This document shows positions 455-54,651 of a stretch of DNA of 64,000 bases, piece by piece. Below the pieces are notes generated by a model, which ran no database searches, was not told where the DNA came from, and worked only from the letters and a program-made list of their open reading frames with translations. Source of the DNA: Deltaproteobacteria bacterium. GTDB lineage: Bacteria > UBA10199 > GCA-002796325 > JACPFF01. The DNA lies in assembly GCA_016183065.1 (NCBI GenBank), contig JACPFF010000004.1, forward strand, positions 1 to 64,000, given 5' to 3'. How positions within the stretch are numbered: the stretch's first letter is position 1; each line of letters opens with the position of its first letter. Made by a program: the position numbers and the translations under genes.

Positions 455-760
455 AGGGGCTCACGTCCCCTCCGGCTCACGCCTCCGGGGACTTCCTCGT
501 CCACCCAGTTTCGCCCCGGTCCCCGGACTCGGTCGTCGCCACACCCCCCTCCAGCGGCACAGCCGGGTCAAGGCCCAGCTCTGCTGGGCCGCAAAGCAAA
601 GTCGAAGACTGTGCGGAGTATGATGGAGCCTCCCCCTTGAGCGCCGCAGTGCGGCTGGGCGGTTGGGCGGTTGGGCCCAGGACATCAGTCCGGGGGAGTG
701 TCGTGCTCAGGCGGAGCCTTCCCCCAGGGTGCCACGGGCGTGATCCACTTGGGCTCCACA
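455..760 (-). repeat. Structured GC-rich repeat, copy A (candidate ncRNA/mobile element)
   Basis: Read on the minus strand, this about 300-nt element matches copy C almost along its whole length. Shared parts are the 5' block ending in CCCGTGGNACCCTGG, the GAGCACGACACTCCC block, a GGAC/GTCC hairpin, a GCCGC-ACT-GCGGC hairpin, a hairpin base CTCCA/TGGAG (here enlarged by an extra stem-loop insertion), the linker GGCGACGACCGAGTCCGG, GGACGAGGAAG, and a 3' hairpin with stem GTCCCC/GGGGAC and a GTGA loop, ending ACGTGAGCCCC. The 3' hairpin stem is GTACCC/GGGTAC in copies B and C, so the pairing is kept by paired changes. Its 5' end overlaps the last codons of the LOG gene. Family identity is unknown to me. 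Confidence 0.75.
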
Positions 761-1311
761 CATGGTGGTACGTACGTCGCAATATGCGCGAACACTTCAT
801 CGAGAGCCGTTGTGACAAAAAAGAGTTCCCGTGCCGACGATGTGAGAAAATGGCGTTCGACCATGTGATCAAACAATTCCAGAAGGGGCCGGTAGAAGTG
901 GTCAATATCGAGAAAGACGATCGGTCGGGTATGATAGTGTAACTGCTTGAGCGTGATGATCTCGATCACCTCTTCGAGCGTGCCAATCCCGCCGGGGAGG
1001 GCGATGAAGGCATCGGCCCGCTGGTCCATGATCCCCTTCCGTTCGCGCAGGTCTTTGGTGACAATCAACTCGTCGGCCTGTTCGTAACAGACGCCGGCAT
1101 GACGTAACGCCTCGGGAATGACGGCCACCACCCGGCCACCATGCATATGGACGGCCGTGGCCACGGCCCCCATGAGCCCGACGTTGCCGCCGCCGTAAAT
1201 GAGGGTGTCTCGCGCCCGGCCAATGGCGGTGCCCAGCGCGATCGCTGCATCAAAGAAATGCGGCTCAATACTGTTGCTCGACGAGCAGAAGAGAGAGAGC
1301 TGACGATTCAC
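685..1311 (-). CDS. LOG family protein (putative nucleoside 5'-monophosphate phosphoribohydrolase)
   Basis: The 208-residue protein has the Rossmann-like LOG fold signatures: a glycine-rich segment YGGGNVGLMG near residue 40 and the catalytic/binding pair of LOG enzymes, ERKGIMDQRADAF followed by PGGIGTLEE around residues 90-112. Known relatives release free base from cytokinin nucleotides or AMP-like nucleotides; the bacterial substrate is usually unproven. The start is a GTG overlapping the stop of the upstream coiled-coil gene by 4 nt, which suggests translational coupling. The last 20-25 residues, from about VEPKW onward, are encoded by structured repeat copy A and are not typical of the family, so the natural C-terminus was probably replaced when the repeat arrived. 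Confidence 0.9.
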   Translation of the reverse strand: MNRQLSLFCSSSNSIEPHFFDAAIALGTAIGRARDTLIYGGGNVGLMGAVATAVHMHGGRVVAVIPEALRHAGVCYEQADELIVTKDLRERKGIMDQRADAFIALPGGIGTLEEVIEIITLKQLHYHTRPIVFLDIDHFYRPLLELFDHMVERHFLTSSARELFFVTTALDEVFAHIATYVPPCVEPKWITPVAPWGKAPPEHDTPPD

Positions 1312-10244: not shown

Positions 10245-10490
10245 GGGTCCCACGGCCCAGCCGCACTGCGGTGCTCAAGGGGGTGTGGCGACGACCGAGT
10301 CCGGGGACCCAGCGCGGCTGGGTGGACGAGGAAGCCCCCAGCGCGCCCCGCGCGCGAGAGGGGGGGACCCAACGGGCTTTGCCCGTTGGGGGGTCAGTGG
10401 CGACGACCGAGTCCGGGGACCCAGCGCAGCTGGATGGACGAGGAAGTACCCGAAGGCGGAGCCGCAGGGTACGTGAGCCCCTCCAATAGT
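10245..10490 (+). repeat. Structured GC-rich repeat, copy B (internally duplicated)
   Basis: This element follows the pilin stop. It has the GCCGC-ACT-GCGGT hairpin, then two successive copies of the module GGCGACGACCGAGTCCGGGGAC + ACCCAGC/GCTGG hairpin + GGAYGAGGAAG, separated by a GC run and a perfect 10-bp hairpin CCCAACGGGC-TTT-GCCCGTTGGG that is shared with copy D. It ends with the GTACCC/GGGTAC hairpin, ACGTGAGCCCCT and CCAATAGT. It lacks the first two hairpins of copy C. Confidence 0.75.
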
Positions 10491-11435: not shown

Positions 11436-11454
11436 GTCCCCATCGTCTAGCCCG
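11436..11454 (+). pseudogene. Duplicated 5' fragment of tRNA-Glu
   Basis: Nineteen bases, GTCCCCATCGTCTAGCCCG, are identical to positions 1-19 of the complete tRNA-Glu gene 129 bp downstream and then diverge at once into repeat copy E. It cannot encode a tRNA. It marks either an insertion into an older tRNA-Glu copy or target duplication. Confidence 0.8.
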
Positions 11455-11516
11455 CGCCCGAGCCCGGGTGCCCACCCGGAGGGTGGGCGGGCGAGGAAGT
11501 CCCCGAAGGTGTGAGC
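11455..11516 (+). repeat. Structured GC-rich repeat, truncated copy E
   Basis: This is the 3' third of the repeat family: CCCGAGCCCGGG, a perfect hairpin GCCCACCC-GGA-GGGTGGGC, GGCGAGGAAG, and the terminal hairpin with stem GTCCCC/GGGGA and inner GGT-GTGA-GCC. The sequence of the first stem differs from copies B and C but still pairs completely, which supports RNA structure. It lies directly after the tRNA-Glu fragment. Confidence 0.7.
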
Positions 11517-11564
11517 CGGAGGGGAGTCCAGACAGGTGGGGTGAGTGCAGGAGCGATGAAAATC

Positions 11565-11639
11565 GTCCCCATCGTCTAGCCCGGTCCAGGACATCGCCCT
11601 TTCACGGCGGTAACAGGGGTTCGAATCCCCTTGGGGACG
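11565..11639 (+). tRNA. tRNA-Glu(TTC)
   Basis: Full cloverleaf: acceptor GTCCCCA/TGGGGAC, anticodon stem TCGCC/GGCGG with loop CTTTCAC (anticodon TTC), and T arm GGGGTTCGAATCCCC. The discriminator is G and the CCA end is not encoded. A strong terminator follows. Confidence 0.97.
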
Positions 11640-30815: not shown

Positions 30816-30890
30816 ACAAGGCGCACACGCGCAGGCTGTTTCCCCACGCGGCTCGGACGAGTAGCGGGTTCATCCGCAAATGTCAATTAC

Positions 30891-31035
30891 AGGGGCTCAC
30901 GTCTACAGGGGCTCACGTCTACAGGGGCTCACGTCGCCCCCCCAACGGGCAAAGCCCGTTGGGTCCCCCCCCCTCGCGCGCGCGGTGCGCGCTGGATAGC
31001 TTCCCACGGACGACGCGCTTGCCCGTGGGAAGCTA
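30891..31035 (-). repeat. Structured GC-rich repeat, rearranged copy D with triplicated 3' end
   Basis: Read on the minus strand it begins with a 13-bp hairpin TAGCTTCCCACGG/CCGTGGGAAGCTA and continues with a GCGCGC tract. It also has the 10-bp hairpin CCCAACGGGC-TTT-GCCCGTTGGG shared with copy B, and ends with three head-to-tail copies of a 16-bp unit containing ACGTGAGCCCCT. The central modules of copies A-C are missing. It is divergent from copy C and only about 50 bp away. Confidence 0.65.
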
Positions 31036-31069
31036 TTTGTTCAAGCGTGAACAGAGGTCACCCGCGTGA

Positions 31070-31987
31070 CTATCGCACCGCAGGTGGGGCCCCACGGGCT
31101 CCCGCCCGTGGTACCCTGGAAGGAGGATTCGCCTGAGCACGACACTCCCCGGACTGACGTCCGGGGCCCCACGACCCAGCCGCACCGCGGCGTTGAAGGG
31201 GAGGCTCCAGCGGCTTTGCCGCTGGAGGGGGATGTGGCGACGACCGAGTCCGGGCACCCGCGAAGCGGGTGGACGAGGAAGTACCCGGAGGCGGAGCCGC
31301 AGGGTACGTGAGCCCCTCCAATAGTGGGCTGGCACGCAAACGGATGAGCACCGGACGTCCGGCGAATCGGCGGTCGATCGACAGAACGCCGATCTCGGGC
31401 ATTGGCACGCTGCCGACCAGGGTGACCCTCTGTCGGGCGATATCAATCTTCCCTCGTACCGTCTGACCGGCAACCTGCAGCGAGCCGGTTGTGAGGGGAA
31501 TGCCCTCTTGTGTGACCGTCGCGATCGTCTCCTTCCCCTGCGAGATCGTGCCGACGAGACTCAGACCACGGACCGTGATGTCCCGTCCCTCTCCCCAGCT
31601 GATTTCGATGACTGATGTGGGGACACCGCGAACAGTGATGGTATAGGGACGCGCTGACGTCTCGGGCTCTCCCGGCTTTTGCCACGTGCCGGAGAAGGGG
31701 GGAAGATCCTCTCCGCGGACCCGTGCCACGGGGCCGCTCAAGGCGTATCGTACCGTCCCCTCTGCACGGAGTTTGACTGGCACAACCGCCTCCTCATCGG
31801 GAAGGCTGAGCTCCAGGTCAAGGGCAATATCCGCGGATTTTTCCGTTCCGGGGAGGCCCCCCAACGCACGAGTCATCAGATCTGCGGTGGAATGCGGGGA
31901 TGCGGTCGCAGAACCCCCTCCAATACCGCTGCAGGGGATGAGGCATGCCATCGTGAGAAGTGCTCTGCCGCTGAAAGGCCATTGCAT
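31070..31987 (-). CDS. Putative lipoprotein with C-terminus replaced by repeat copy C
   Basis: A protein of about 305 residues whose N-terminus reads as a signal peptide with lipobox-like CLIPC|SG near residue 20. Residues 30-215 form a beta-rich domain (TITVRGVPTSVIEISW, GKIDIARQRVTLVGSVPMPEIGVLSID). From about residue 221 onward (LLEGLTYPAAPPPG...) the sequence is Pro/Arg-rich and encoded antisense to repeat copy C, so it is not native. The original stop was probably lost when the element inserted. The function is unknown. Confidence 0.6.
   Translation of the reverse strand: MQWPFSGRALLTMACLIPCSGIGGGSATASPHSTADLMTRALGGLPGTEKSADIALDLELSLPDEEAVVPVKLRAEGTVRYALSGPVARVRGEDLPPFSGTWQKPGEPETSARPYTITVRGVPTSVIEISWGEGRDITVRGLSLVGTISQGKETIATVTQEGIPLTTGSLQVAGQTVRGKIDIARQRVTLVGSVPMPEIGVLSIDRRFAGRPVLIRLRASPLLEGLTYPAAPPPGTSSSTRFAGARTRSSPHPPPAAKPLEPPLQRRGAAGSWGPGRQSGECRAQANPPSRVPRAGARGAPPAVR
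31083..31325 (+). repeat. Structured GC-rich repeat, copy C (best preserved)
   Basis: Read on the plus strand, this 243-nt element holds six hairpins in order: CCACGGGC/GCCCGTGG, CCCCGGAC-TGAC-GTCCGGGG, GCCGC-ACC-GCGGC, CTCCAGCGGC-TTT-GCCGCTGGAG, CACCCGC-GAA-GCGGGTG and GTACCC...GGGTAC with an inner GGC-GGA-GCC. Linkers GGCGACGACCGAGTCCGGG and GGACGAGGAAG and the end ACGTGAGCCCCT are conserved in the other copies. The stems differ in sequence between copies but keep pairing. The 3' end of the lipoprotein gene on the other strand runs through the whole element. Confidence 0.78.
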
Positions 31988-32176
31988 GACCACGATGCCT
32001 ACTGTGGCATGGGGGATCGGCCAAGGCAGAGCGCGTTGGCACAGTGCGGCGGACGCATAACATGGGTACGTCATTCGCTTGCTAATCGCCTGATATCAAT
32101 CACCATTCTGTCACCACTGGCGGAGGCATTTTTTCGTGACAACAAAAACCTCGGGCAACCGATACTCTATGTAACC

Positions 32177-52525: not shown

Positions 52526-52592
52526 GCCGTTTTTTGTGGTTTAAGCCACTAAGGCAAACTTCTTGCCGACGGTCCGAAAATCGTCTTCACGT

Positions 52593-53435
52593 TCAGCTCT
52601 TCCCAATCTGCTTCCTCTGCGGTTTTTCGGGGAGATAGTTTTCCCTTGAAACTACCCGTCGGCTGGTCTCGATTTCCAACTTCTTTCGGGCATCCCCGGC
52701 GATCTTTCCGCCGCGCTGGGCGGCATCCTTGTTTTCGTCAAAACCTTGGGCGTCTTTGTTGCGGGCGATCTCGGTCGTCGAGGCTTCTCCCAACATAGAG
52801 AAAATCAACTCAAGATCGTTCATGTGGTCGCGTAGATTTTCGCGCTTGAGTCCCTTGTACTCTTGGTACTCGCTTGGAGTCATTCCGAAGGTCGCCTTGC
52901 TGATCTCCGCAGTCAGGATCGAAAACTCCCTGTCTTCTTTGACCCCTCGTTTCTGCCACTCGTCGGTTAATTCCTCCCGGATCGCAATCCCCCGCATCCG
53001 TTTTTCAATCCATTCTTCGGGGTATCCCTTCGCCTTGTACAAGGCGCGGGTCCGTTTGGTGGCAAGCTCCGGGTTCTCGATCTCCTGCACCCGTTCGTAG
53101 CCAACCTTGGCCAGCCACCGTTTGAACGGCTCCGCCTTGGGAGAGGGGATAGACTGAATTACTCGGAAGAGGGTTTCGGCATTGGCCGCATCGGTTTCCC
53201 TCATCTTGCCGTCGGGGGCCTCCATTTTCAACTGTACGATTTTCTCGTACAGTTCAGAAAATCCTTCTTCTTCCGCTAAGTTACGCTTGAGGTCTGACCA
53301 GTACCGGCGCGGGTTTTCGCTGTCGGTTAAGGCGGCCACCACGTCAATGACCGAGAAGTGCCAGTCATTGTTGTGGAGGACCCGCCGGATGTTCTTTCCC
53401 TTGAAGACGACGAGTTTGTTTTCGGAGGCAGTCAT
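52593..53435 (-). CDS. Bro-N / DinD-like protein
   Basis: In this 280-residue protein, residues 6-105 are a Bro-N domain (VVFKGKNIRRVLHNNDWHFSVIDVVAAL). Residues 165-280 match the DinD-type C-terminal region (ISKATFGMTPSEYQEYKGLKRENLRDHM, MLGEASTTEIARNKDAQGFDENK, GGKIAGDARKKLE). DinD is a DNA damage-inducible protein reported to inhibit RecA filaments, and Bro-N proteins are common in phages. A second, frameshifted copy lies immediately downstream on the map, with about 950 bp duplicated. Confidence 0.85.
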   Translation of the reverse strand: MTASENKLVVFKGKNIRRVLHNNDWHFSVIDVVAALTDSENPRRYWSDLKRNLAEEEGFSELYEKIVQLKMEAPDGKMRETDAANAETLFRVIQSIPSPKAEPFKRWLAKVGYERVQEIENPELATKRTRALYKAKGYPEEWIEKRMRGIAIREELTDEWQKRGVKEDREFSILTAEISKATFGMTPSEYQEYKGLKRENLRDHMNDLELIFSMLGEASTTEIARNKDAQGFDENKDAAQRGGKIAGDARKKLEIETSRRVVSRENYLPEKPQRKQIGKS

Positions 53436-53545
53436 TCAACGACTCATAATCATATTCCTCTCAAACCTTCAAGCAGGGATCACGCCGCGATCGAAAACTG
53501 CTGGCACGCGGTTCTAAAATCGTCTATGTATTCACCCCAAGAAGA

Positions 53546-53580
53546 ATGGCCGACCCTGAGTTTGTCGAAGGGGAGGCCAT
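53546..53580. repeat. Palindromic repeat CCCTGAGTTTGTCGAAGGG
   Basis: The 19-bp motif CCCTGAGTTTGTCGAAGGG (53554-53572) is flanked by inverted GGCC/GGCC bases. Near-identical palindromes (CCCTGAGCTTGTCGAAGGG type) are widespread extragenic repeats in many bacterial genomes. Confidence 0.65.
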
Positions 53581-53685
53581 TTTTCTGGAAAATAGAAAAT
53601 GGAGAATAGAAAGTGGAGGTAAAGGTCCCAAGGTCTGATGGTGAAGCCGTGAGGCGGAGGGGTTTTTTGCTGATCCAAGTAGGGT

Positions 53686-54539
53686 TTAGAACTTCTTCCC
53701 AATCTGCTTCCTCTGCGGTTTTTCGGGAAGGTAATTTTCTTTTGTAACGACGCGACGACCGCTCTCAATCTCCAACTTTCTCCGCGCATCACCGGCGATC
53801 TTTCCGTCCCTGTGAGCGGCATCCTTGTTTTCGTCAAAACCCTGGGTGTCTTTATTGCGGGCGATCTCGGTCGTCGATGCCTCCCCCAACATGGAGAAGA
53901 TTAACTTCAGATCGTTCATGTGGTCACGCAGGTTTTCGCGTTTGAGTCCCTTGTGTTCTGGTACTCACTTGGGGTCATCCCAAAGGTCGCCTTGCTGATC
54001 TCTGCCGTGAGGATCGAAAACTCCCGGTCTTCCTTAATCCCTCGTTTCTGCCACTCGTCGGTCAACTCTTCCCGGATGGCGATGCCGCGCATCCGTTTCT
54101 CGATCCAATCGTCGGGGTATCTCTTCGCCTTGTAGAGGGCGCGGGTTCGTTTGGTCGCCAGTTCCGGGTCTTCGATTTCCTGCACCCGTTCGTAGCCGAC
54201 CTTGGCCAGCCAGCGTTTGAACGGTTCCGCCTTGGGGGAGGGGATCGACTGGATGATGCGGAAAACCCCCTCAGTGTTGGCACAATTGAGTTTTTGCGGC
54301 CCCCCTGTGGTCTCCACCGAAAGGGGGGTGACAATTTGTCCCCACCCTTTGGCTAACTCCTCGTCCCGACTACGTATTTTCTTGATATAGTCCGAAGCGT
54401 TTGGGGTATCGGTAAGGGCTTCCACGACATCGGCCACAACGAACCACCATTCATTTTGGTGAAGGGTGCGCCGGATATTCTTTCCCTTGAAGACGACGAG
54501 TTTGTTTTCAGGTGTGGTCATTCGAAGACTCATAACCAC
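53686..54539 (-). pseudogene. Frameshifted Bro-N / DinD-like paralogue
   Basis: This copy aligns with the 52593-53435 gene along nearly its whole length. The frame is intact from the ATG at 54539 (RBS and VVFKGKNIRRTLHQNEWWFVVADVVEAL) to SKATFGMTPSEYQ, then shifts near 53.95 kb. There one base is missing relative to the intact copy (CTTGTACTCTTGG versus CTTGTGTTCTGG). The DinD-like end continues in another frame from 53919 to 53686. The Bro-N part is more diverged between copies than the C-terminal part. Confidence 0.85.
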
Positions 54540-54651
54540 AGTTCGATCACATCCTCAAGCGCGGATCACGCCGCCATCGAAAACTGCTGGCAAGCGGTCC
54601 GAAAATCGTCTATGTGCCCACCCCAAGCTGTGATCATAACAAAGGGGTTCC

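Follow-up and report, generated by a model that had tools for sequence, protein, structure and literature searches.

The element at positions 31083 to 31325 (+) of the 64-kb stretch of DNA analysed here (the window), which we call copy C, is very probably made up of several short mobile repeats, non-autonomous and hairpin-forming, from a phylum-wide set of protein-coding palindromic elements, similar in kind to the RPE of Rickettsia. Copies of this family are found in intergenic positions, downstream of tRNAs, and, in frame, within conserved protein genes. Our working model is that the hairpins would be recognised in single-stranded DNA or RNA by a trans-acting machinery, that insertions into genes would survive only if the frame is kept and a tolerant loop is hit, and that an in-gene insert would then be translated as an extra peptide.

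Modular make-up and fold of the repeat family

Copy C (243 nt) carries the six hairpins and constant linkers described in the original prediction. What that prediction missed is that copy C is a mosaic of three separable palindromic modules, T3-T1-T2, followed by the T1 tail, and that the family to which it belongs also occurs inside protein genes. T3 (31086 to 31172, +) comprises the hairpins CCACGGGC/GCCCGTGG and CCCCGGAC/GTCCGGGG, with the direct repeat GGGGCCCCACG at its borders. T1 without its tail (31176 to 31231, +; 98% to the T1 query) reads CCAGCCGC..GAAGGGGAGG-CTCCAGCGGC/GCCGCTGGAG, T2 (31232 to 31308, +) is inserted in the T1 tail hairpin, and the T1 tail itself (31306 to 31325, +) is ACGTGAGCCCCTCCAATAGT. 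Within T2, the segment GACCGAG precedes a stem TCC/GGA that encloses CACCCGC/GCGGGTG, and CGAGGAAGT and a stem ACCC/GGGT follow. An ORF with no assigned function and no Pfam match (31070 to 32074, -) has its C-terminal part read antisense through copy C.

A BLAST search with copy C found 56 places in its own genome, a 1.97-Mb draft, and the matches broke recurrently at query positions near 65, 93, 127-129, 149, and 204, the pattern expected from a mosaic of modules. In relatives, the modules occur separately, T1 as a unit of ~75 bp (CCAGCCGCAAAGCGGCGTTGAGGGGGAGGCTCCAGCGGCTTTGCCGCTGGAGGGGGCGACGCGAGCCCCTGTAAT) and T2 as one of ~70 bp (GACCGAG-stem-CGAGGAAGT-stem). In the genome of copy C, T2 usually lies within the T1 tail hairpin and T3 within the T1 head; another unit often splits T2 in turn. 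Pattern counts, which are approximate because the fetched loci overlap somewhat, gave 48 intact T1 tails versus 78 split by T2, 54 complete T2 modules versus 29 split after GAGGAAGT, and 26 T1 heads with T3 versus 23 without. Within the window there are 4 occurrences of the linker GGCGACGACCGAGTCCGG, where 0.12 are expected, and the genome as a whole has 95 with at most two mismatches (77 exact), against none for the reversed control pattern; the two shorter linkers were individually non-significant within the window. The five copies reported earlier in the window, A to E, are real, and the total of about 100 copies in the genome had been underestimated.

Copies A, B, and D are further combinations of modules. 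Copy A (447 to 757, -) is a composite of T3, the T1 head, T4, and T2 that overlaps the 3' end of an ORF at 685-1311 (-), whose last residues are supplied by T3; judged by eye, this ORF looks like a LOG-type protein. Copy B (10246 to 10490, +), a nested composite of the T1 head, T2, hpA, T1b, and T2, follows a pilin-like ORF directly after its stop codon. Copy D (30886 to 31036, -), located ~70 bp from a tRNA-Ala, consists of a T5 hairpin, hpA, and T1b, then three tandem T1 tails; the three tandem units of the tail GACGTGAGCCCCTGTA occupy positions 30886-30934. Copy E (11455 to 11525, +) is a diverged T2 on its own, and an intact tRNA-Glu (11565 to 11639, +) lies behind it; the first 19 nt of this tRNA are duplicated directly in front of copy E (11436 to 11454, +). 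The window also contains a 33-bp coding repeat (TEIASVRTDLT type) within a coiled-coil-like ORF at 1423-1646, and related stretches ~1.09 kb apart at 52538-54627 that are probably tandem duplicated genes.

The 243-nt strand of copy C folds at -132.7 kcal/mol, compared with -115.4 ± 5.3 kcal/mol for dinucleotide shuffles (z = -3.3), none of 200 shuffles being as good. In an alignment of 24 T2 sequences, 95.5% of the cells are paired and two-sided change is seen at 14 of the 16 pairs; T1 (70 sequences) reaches 94.5% and 11 of 20 pairs. No shuffle out of 500 matched the T1 or T2 values, and none of the slid versions of T2 used as a control came near the real value. The covariation claimed in the original prediction therefore holds: the two-sided stem changes in its list are genuine and reach across genera. 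The stems of each module are kept through compensatory change and the linkers are fixed, the unpaired GACCGAG and CGAGGAAGT ranking with the best-conserved parts of T2. A closing stem formed by the flanks of T2 was rejected, as complementary flanks were found in some copies only and mostly within chance. Rfam contained no family matching copy C at gathering thresholds, and searches at E values up to 10 returned only chance-level scores. RNase P and introns were among the classes without a match to copy C, and a hammerhead-like reading of CGAGUCC...GGACGAGGAA, made by eye, was likewise dropped after Rfam gave no match at E values up to 10.

Spread through the phylum and inserts within protein genes

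We compared 46 genomes of the phylum, own genome included, all of them drafts of a single class that represent 43 genera. T1 is present in 23 genomes and 22 genera, and T2 in 14 genomes (13 of the 45 others). The search for homologues elsewhere, set as a check by the original prediction, thus found them both genome-wide and in 22 of the 45 other genomes of the phylum. Copy number ranges from 0 to ~100 per genome. The T1 tail loop comes in genome-specific variants, such as TTTGCCT in G024 and GACGCTA in G018, which suggests recent spread within lineages. The family had no match in the viral contigs, phages, and plasmids searched, and a 21-mer scan of named genomes gave a single match, in Rugosimonospora, that is unrelated.

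In relatives, T1 lies in frame in the genes for LeuS, BipA, Mfd, ArfB, NadB, NadC, ArsS, and YbeY, and T2 in that for PanE, with family models or solved homologues flanking the insert on both sides in each case; SpeA of relatives also carries an in-frame insert, and its family model begins close behind it. In the genome of copy C, T2 is found in frame in CarA and PyrE, again with flanking models or solved homologues on both sides, and a T3-T1 composite of 165 bp lies in frame in MurF, close behind the GKST loop and with both sides matched. HpnD and NrdJ likewise carry an insert in frame, and family models or solved homologues match on either side of it. The nrdJ region holds two composites, L009:1503-1742 and L022:1504-1663, of which L009 is apparently in or beside an intein. 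Empty sites were seen for BipA in at least eight relatives and for LeuS in several, and the E. coli BipA-type homologue has an alignment gap at the position of the insert; an empty RimP site is present in the same genus, its junction being unreadable through divergence. In the AlphaFold model of BipA, the insert is an unstructured stretch, predicted with low confidence, between two strands. Judging from these sequences, the host proteins are probably made with an extra foreign loop. The peptide predicted for the T1 insert, approximately QPxxGVEGEAPAALPLEGATRAPVI, found no mention in the literature collection searched.

The reading frame was examined for 74 non-redundant T1 copies of relatives, with ORFs of at least 100 codons required on each side. 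Through 17 of them, long ORFs are joined in frame, in the sense orientation in 16 cases, and sense copies end in the one open sense frame. Another 6 of the 74 copies are flanked on either side by long ORFs that are not joined. Reading the translations by eye, we found that 4 of these 6 separate two different genes, such as a 2'-5' RNA ligase-like ORF and RecA or a GalU-like and an asparaginyl-tRNA synthetase-like ORF, and that the remaining ones have at least one side that is not gene-like. No frame-broken gene was found among the T1 copies with long ORFs on both sides. Since the in-frame examples were picked by an ORF criterion, this result rests on the smaller two-sided test, and the frame test as a whole is suggestive rather than complete. 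In G024, 20 of the 51 matches to the T1 peptide lie within uninterrupted frames of at least 250 codons. In contrast to the sense T1 copies of relatives, the composites that lie in ORFs of the own genome are mostly antisense.

Mobility, tRNA genes, and alternative explanations

The original prediction had offered two readings, a non-autonomous mobile element and a dispersed non-coding RNA. The former is borne out by the many copies, the lineage-specific variants, the empty sites in relatives, and the strong covariation, whereas the latter is only a possibility, as many copies occur in frame within protein genes, where they are presumably translated. With respect to the machinery, Y1 transposases are equally frequent in genomes with T1 (19 of 23) and without T1 (19 of 23) and are therefore not convincing partners; mobilisation by a RAYT/Y1 enzyme was rejected on this lack of co-occurrence with T1. 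The 98% complete genome G016 contains T1 and has no Y1 match. At one locus of the own genome (L214; G000 C8:65820-65984), the ORF of a fragmentary Y1 transposase continues into a T1/T2 composite. T1 showed no clean target-site duplication. As for T3, its bounding direct repeat GGGGCCCCACG stands as a single copy in the heads that have no T3 and could be a target duplication or a recombination product.

Some copies in relatives are closely associated with tRNA genes. At five loci and for five isotypes, L229 (Glu; 1345-1587), L231 (Arg), L235 (Ser), L236 (Gln), and L249 (Pro), T2 runs straight into an exact copy of the last 18-20 nt of the upstream tRNA, and at L205 (Lys), T1 and a few bases are followed by such an exact 3'-end copy. 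The upstream tRNA genes are intact at all six loci. Several of the T2 modules that trail tRNAs are preceded by an extra hairpin (GATGAGAACC-hairpin-GGTTC). Attempts to recover a split tRNA by joining the flanks of T2 were abandoned, as they gave one weak tRNA-Arg case only, at L248. This arrangement raises the possibility, which we consider somewhat doubtful, that T2 started out as a unit tied to tRNA genes, integrating at or copying the segment from the T loop to the 3' end, in the manner of rtT repeats, and that T1/T2 composites spread later. Such an origin would account for the 3'-end copies and for the presence of a tRNA within 400 bp of 13 of 25 T2 copies and 11 of 74 T1 copies in relatives, but only 3 of the 96 composites of the own genome are near a tRNA, and the Rfam RtT model gave no match. 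It concerns the source and movement of T2 and is compatible with our explanation of copy C as a composite of mobile palindromes. A bolder proposal, which we consider unlikely, is that T2, as a structured mobile element, travels via tRNA genes, capturing or copying the 18-20 nt from the T loop to the 3' end of any tRNA behind which it lands, regardless of isotype and possibly by an RNA-level step, and that its fusion with other palindromes has given rise to a combinatorial family adding peptides to essential enzymes across the phylum.

An RNA-level role for the family is possible. The repeats might have been selected as regulatory or processing RNAs (BOX-, NEMIS-, or REP-like), with hairpins that serve mRNA stability, termination, or processing and with dispersal as a secondary effect. 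The strong covariation, the conserved unpaired linkers, the many intergenic copies, and the location of T2 beside tRNA genes with a conserved preceding hairpin all agree with this proposal, yet the enzymes that carry in-frame copies are unrelated, which suggests that the family dispersed without any shared regulatory target, and the variation from no copies to ~100 between genomes and the empty Rfam search also speak against it; we find it improbable as the primary explanation. The original prediction would have tested HEARO/omega RNA first among known classes, and the family does share with it a multi-hairpin form, a comparable size, and a dispersed distribution; the wider reading is that of a known guide RNA, of this or another type, belonging to an IscB/TnpB element. 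This identification can hardly be correct given that no HEARO match appeared in Rfam at E values up to 10, that the modules vary independently and nest in one another, and that ORFs run through the in-gene copies. A further alternative is that the in-gene inserts are skipped by translational bypassing or removed by splicing, as byps or introns, so that no peptide is added. Stable hairpins do lie in coding sequence, and byps-like palindromes occur in yeast mitochondria (cited in PMC6649704). However, skipping needs no retention of frame, whereas the 17 joined T1 copies were accompanied by no frame-broken gene, and several in-gene copies with loop-length variants still end in the open frame. Joined frames and the lack of broken genes favour translation over skipping or splicing, and we judge the latter very unlikely.

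Implications and comparison with known systems

To our knowledge, palindromic mobile elements that insert in frame have been described chiefly in Rickettsia and Wolbachia, both intracellular. If our interpretation of the family as protein-coding palindromic elements is correct, mobile repeats can supply new protein loops far beyond these two genera, including in essential proteins such as LeuS, BipA, CarA, and MurF. The family would then provide a large natural data set of insertion-tolerant protein positions, the copies of tRNA 3' ends would give a handle on how such elements move, and annotators should be warned that the inserts are real parts of gene models.

Several known systems share parts of this organisation. 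Mosaic modules with variable internal copy number are found in the BOX elements of Streptococcus pneumoniae and in the BIMEs of E. coli; the likeness to our family concerns this layout, and BOX elements and BIMEs are mainly intergenic. Dispersed hairpins also characterise the REP/RAYT system, but the Y1 transposases common in the phylum occur just as often in genomes without T1. The rtT repeats of the E. coli tyrT operon are units located behind a tRNA gene and terminated by a duplicate of the 3' end of that tRNA, a layout seen in some T2 and T1 copies of relatives but not in copy C; our family differs in using several tRNA isotypes and in having the module elsewhere in the genome as well. The RPE are short palindromic repeats of ~100-150 bp that occur between genes and in frame inside conserved genes, where the protein tolerates them (PMC2229807), and the protein-coding palindromes of Wolbachia are likewise found both in intergenic regions and in frame in conserved genes (PMC10969869). 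Our family has in common with both that it is multi-copy, palindromic, ~100-150 bp in size, and in frame inside conserved, unrelated genes, a likeness claimed by kind only; it differs in its hosts, which are other bacteria from 22 genera of one phylum, in its separable nested modules with composites of up to ~330 bp, and in its copies of tRNA 3' ends. The best match in kind is thus the protein-coding palindromic element exemplified by the RPE of Rickettsia, to which this family adds a new spread, the nesting of modules, and an association with tRNA genes.
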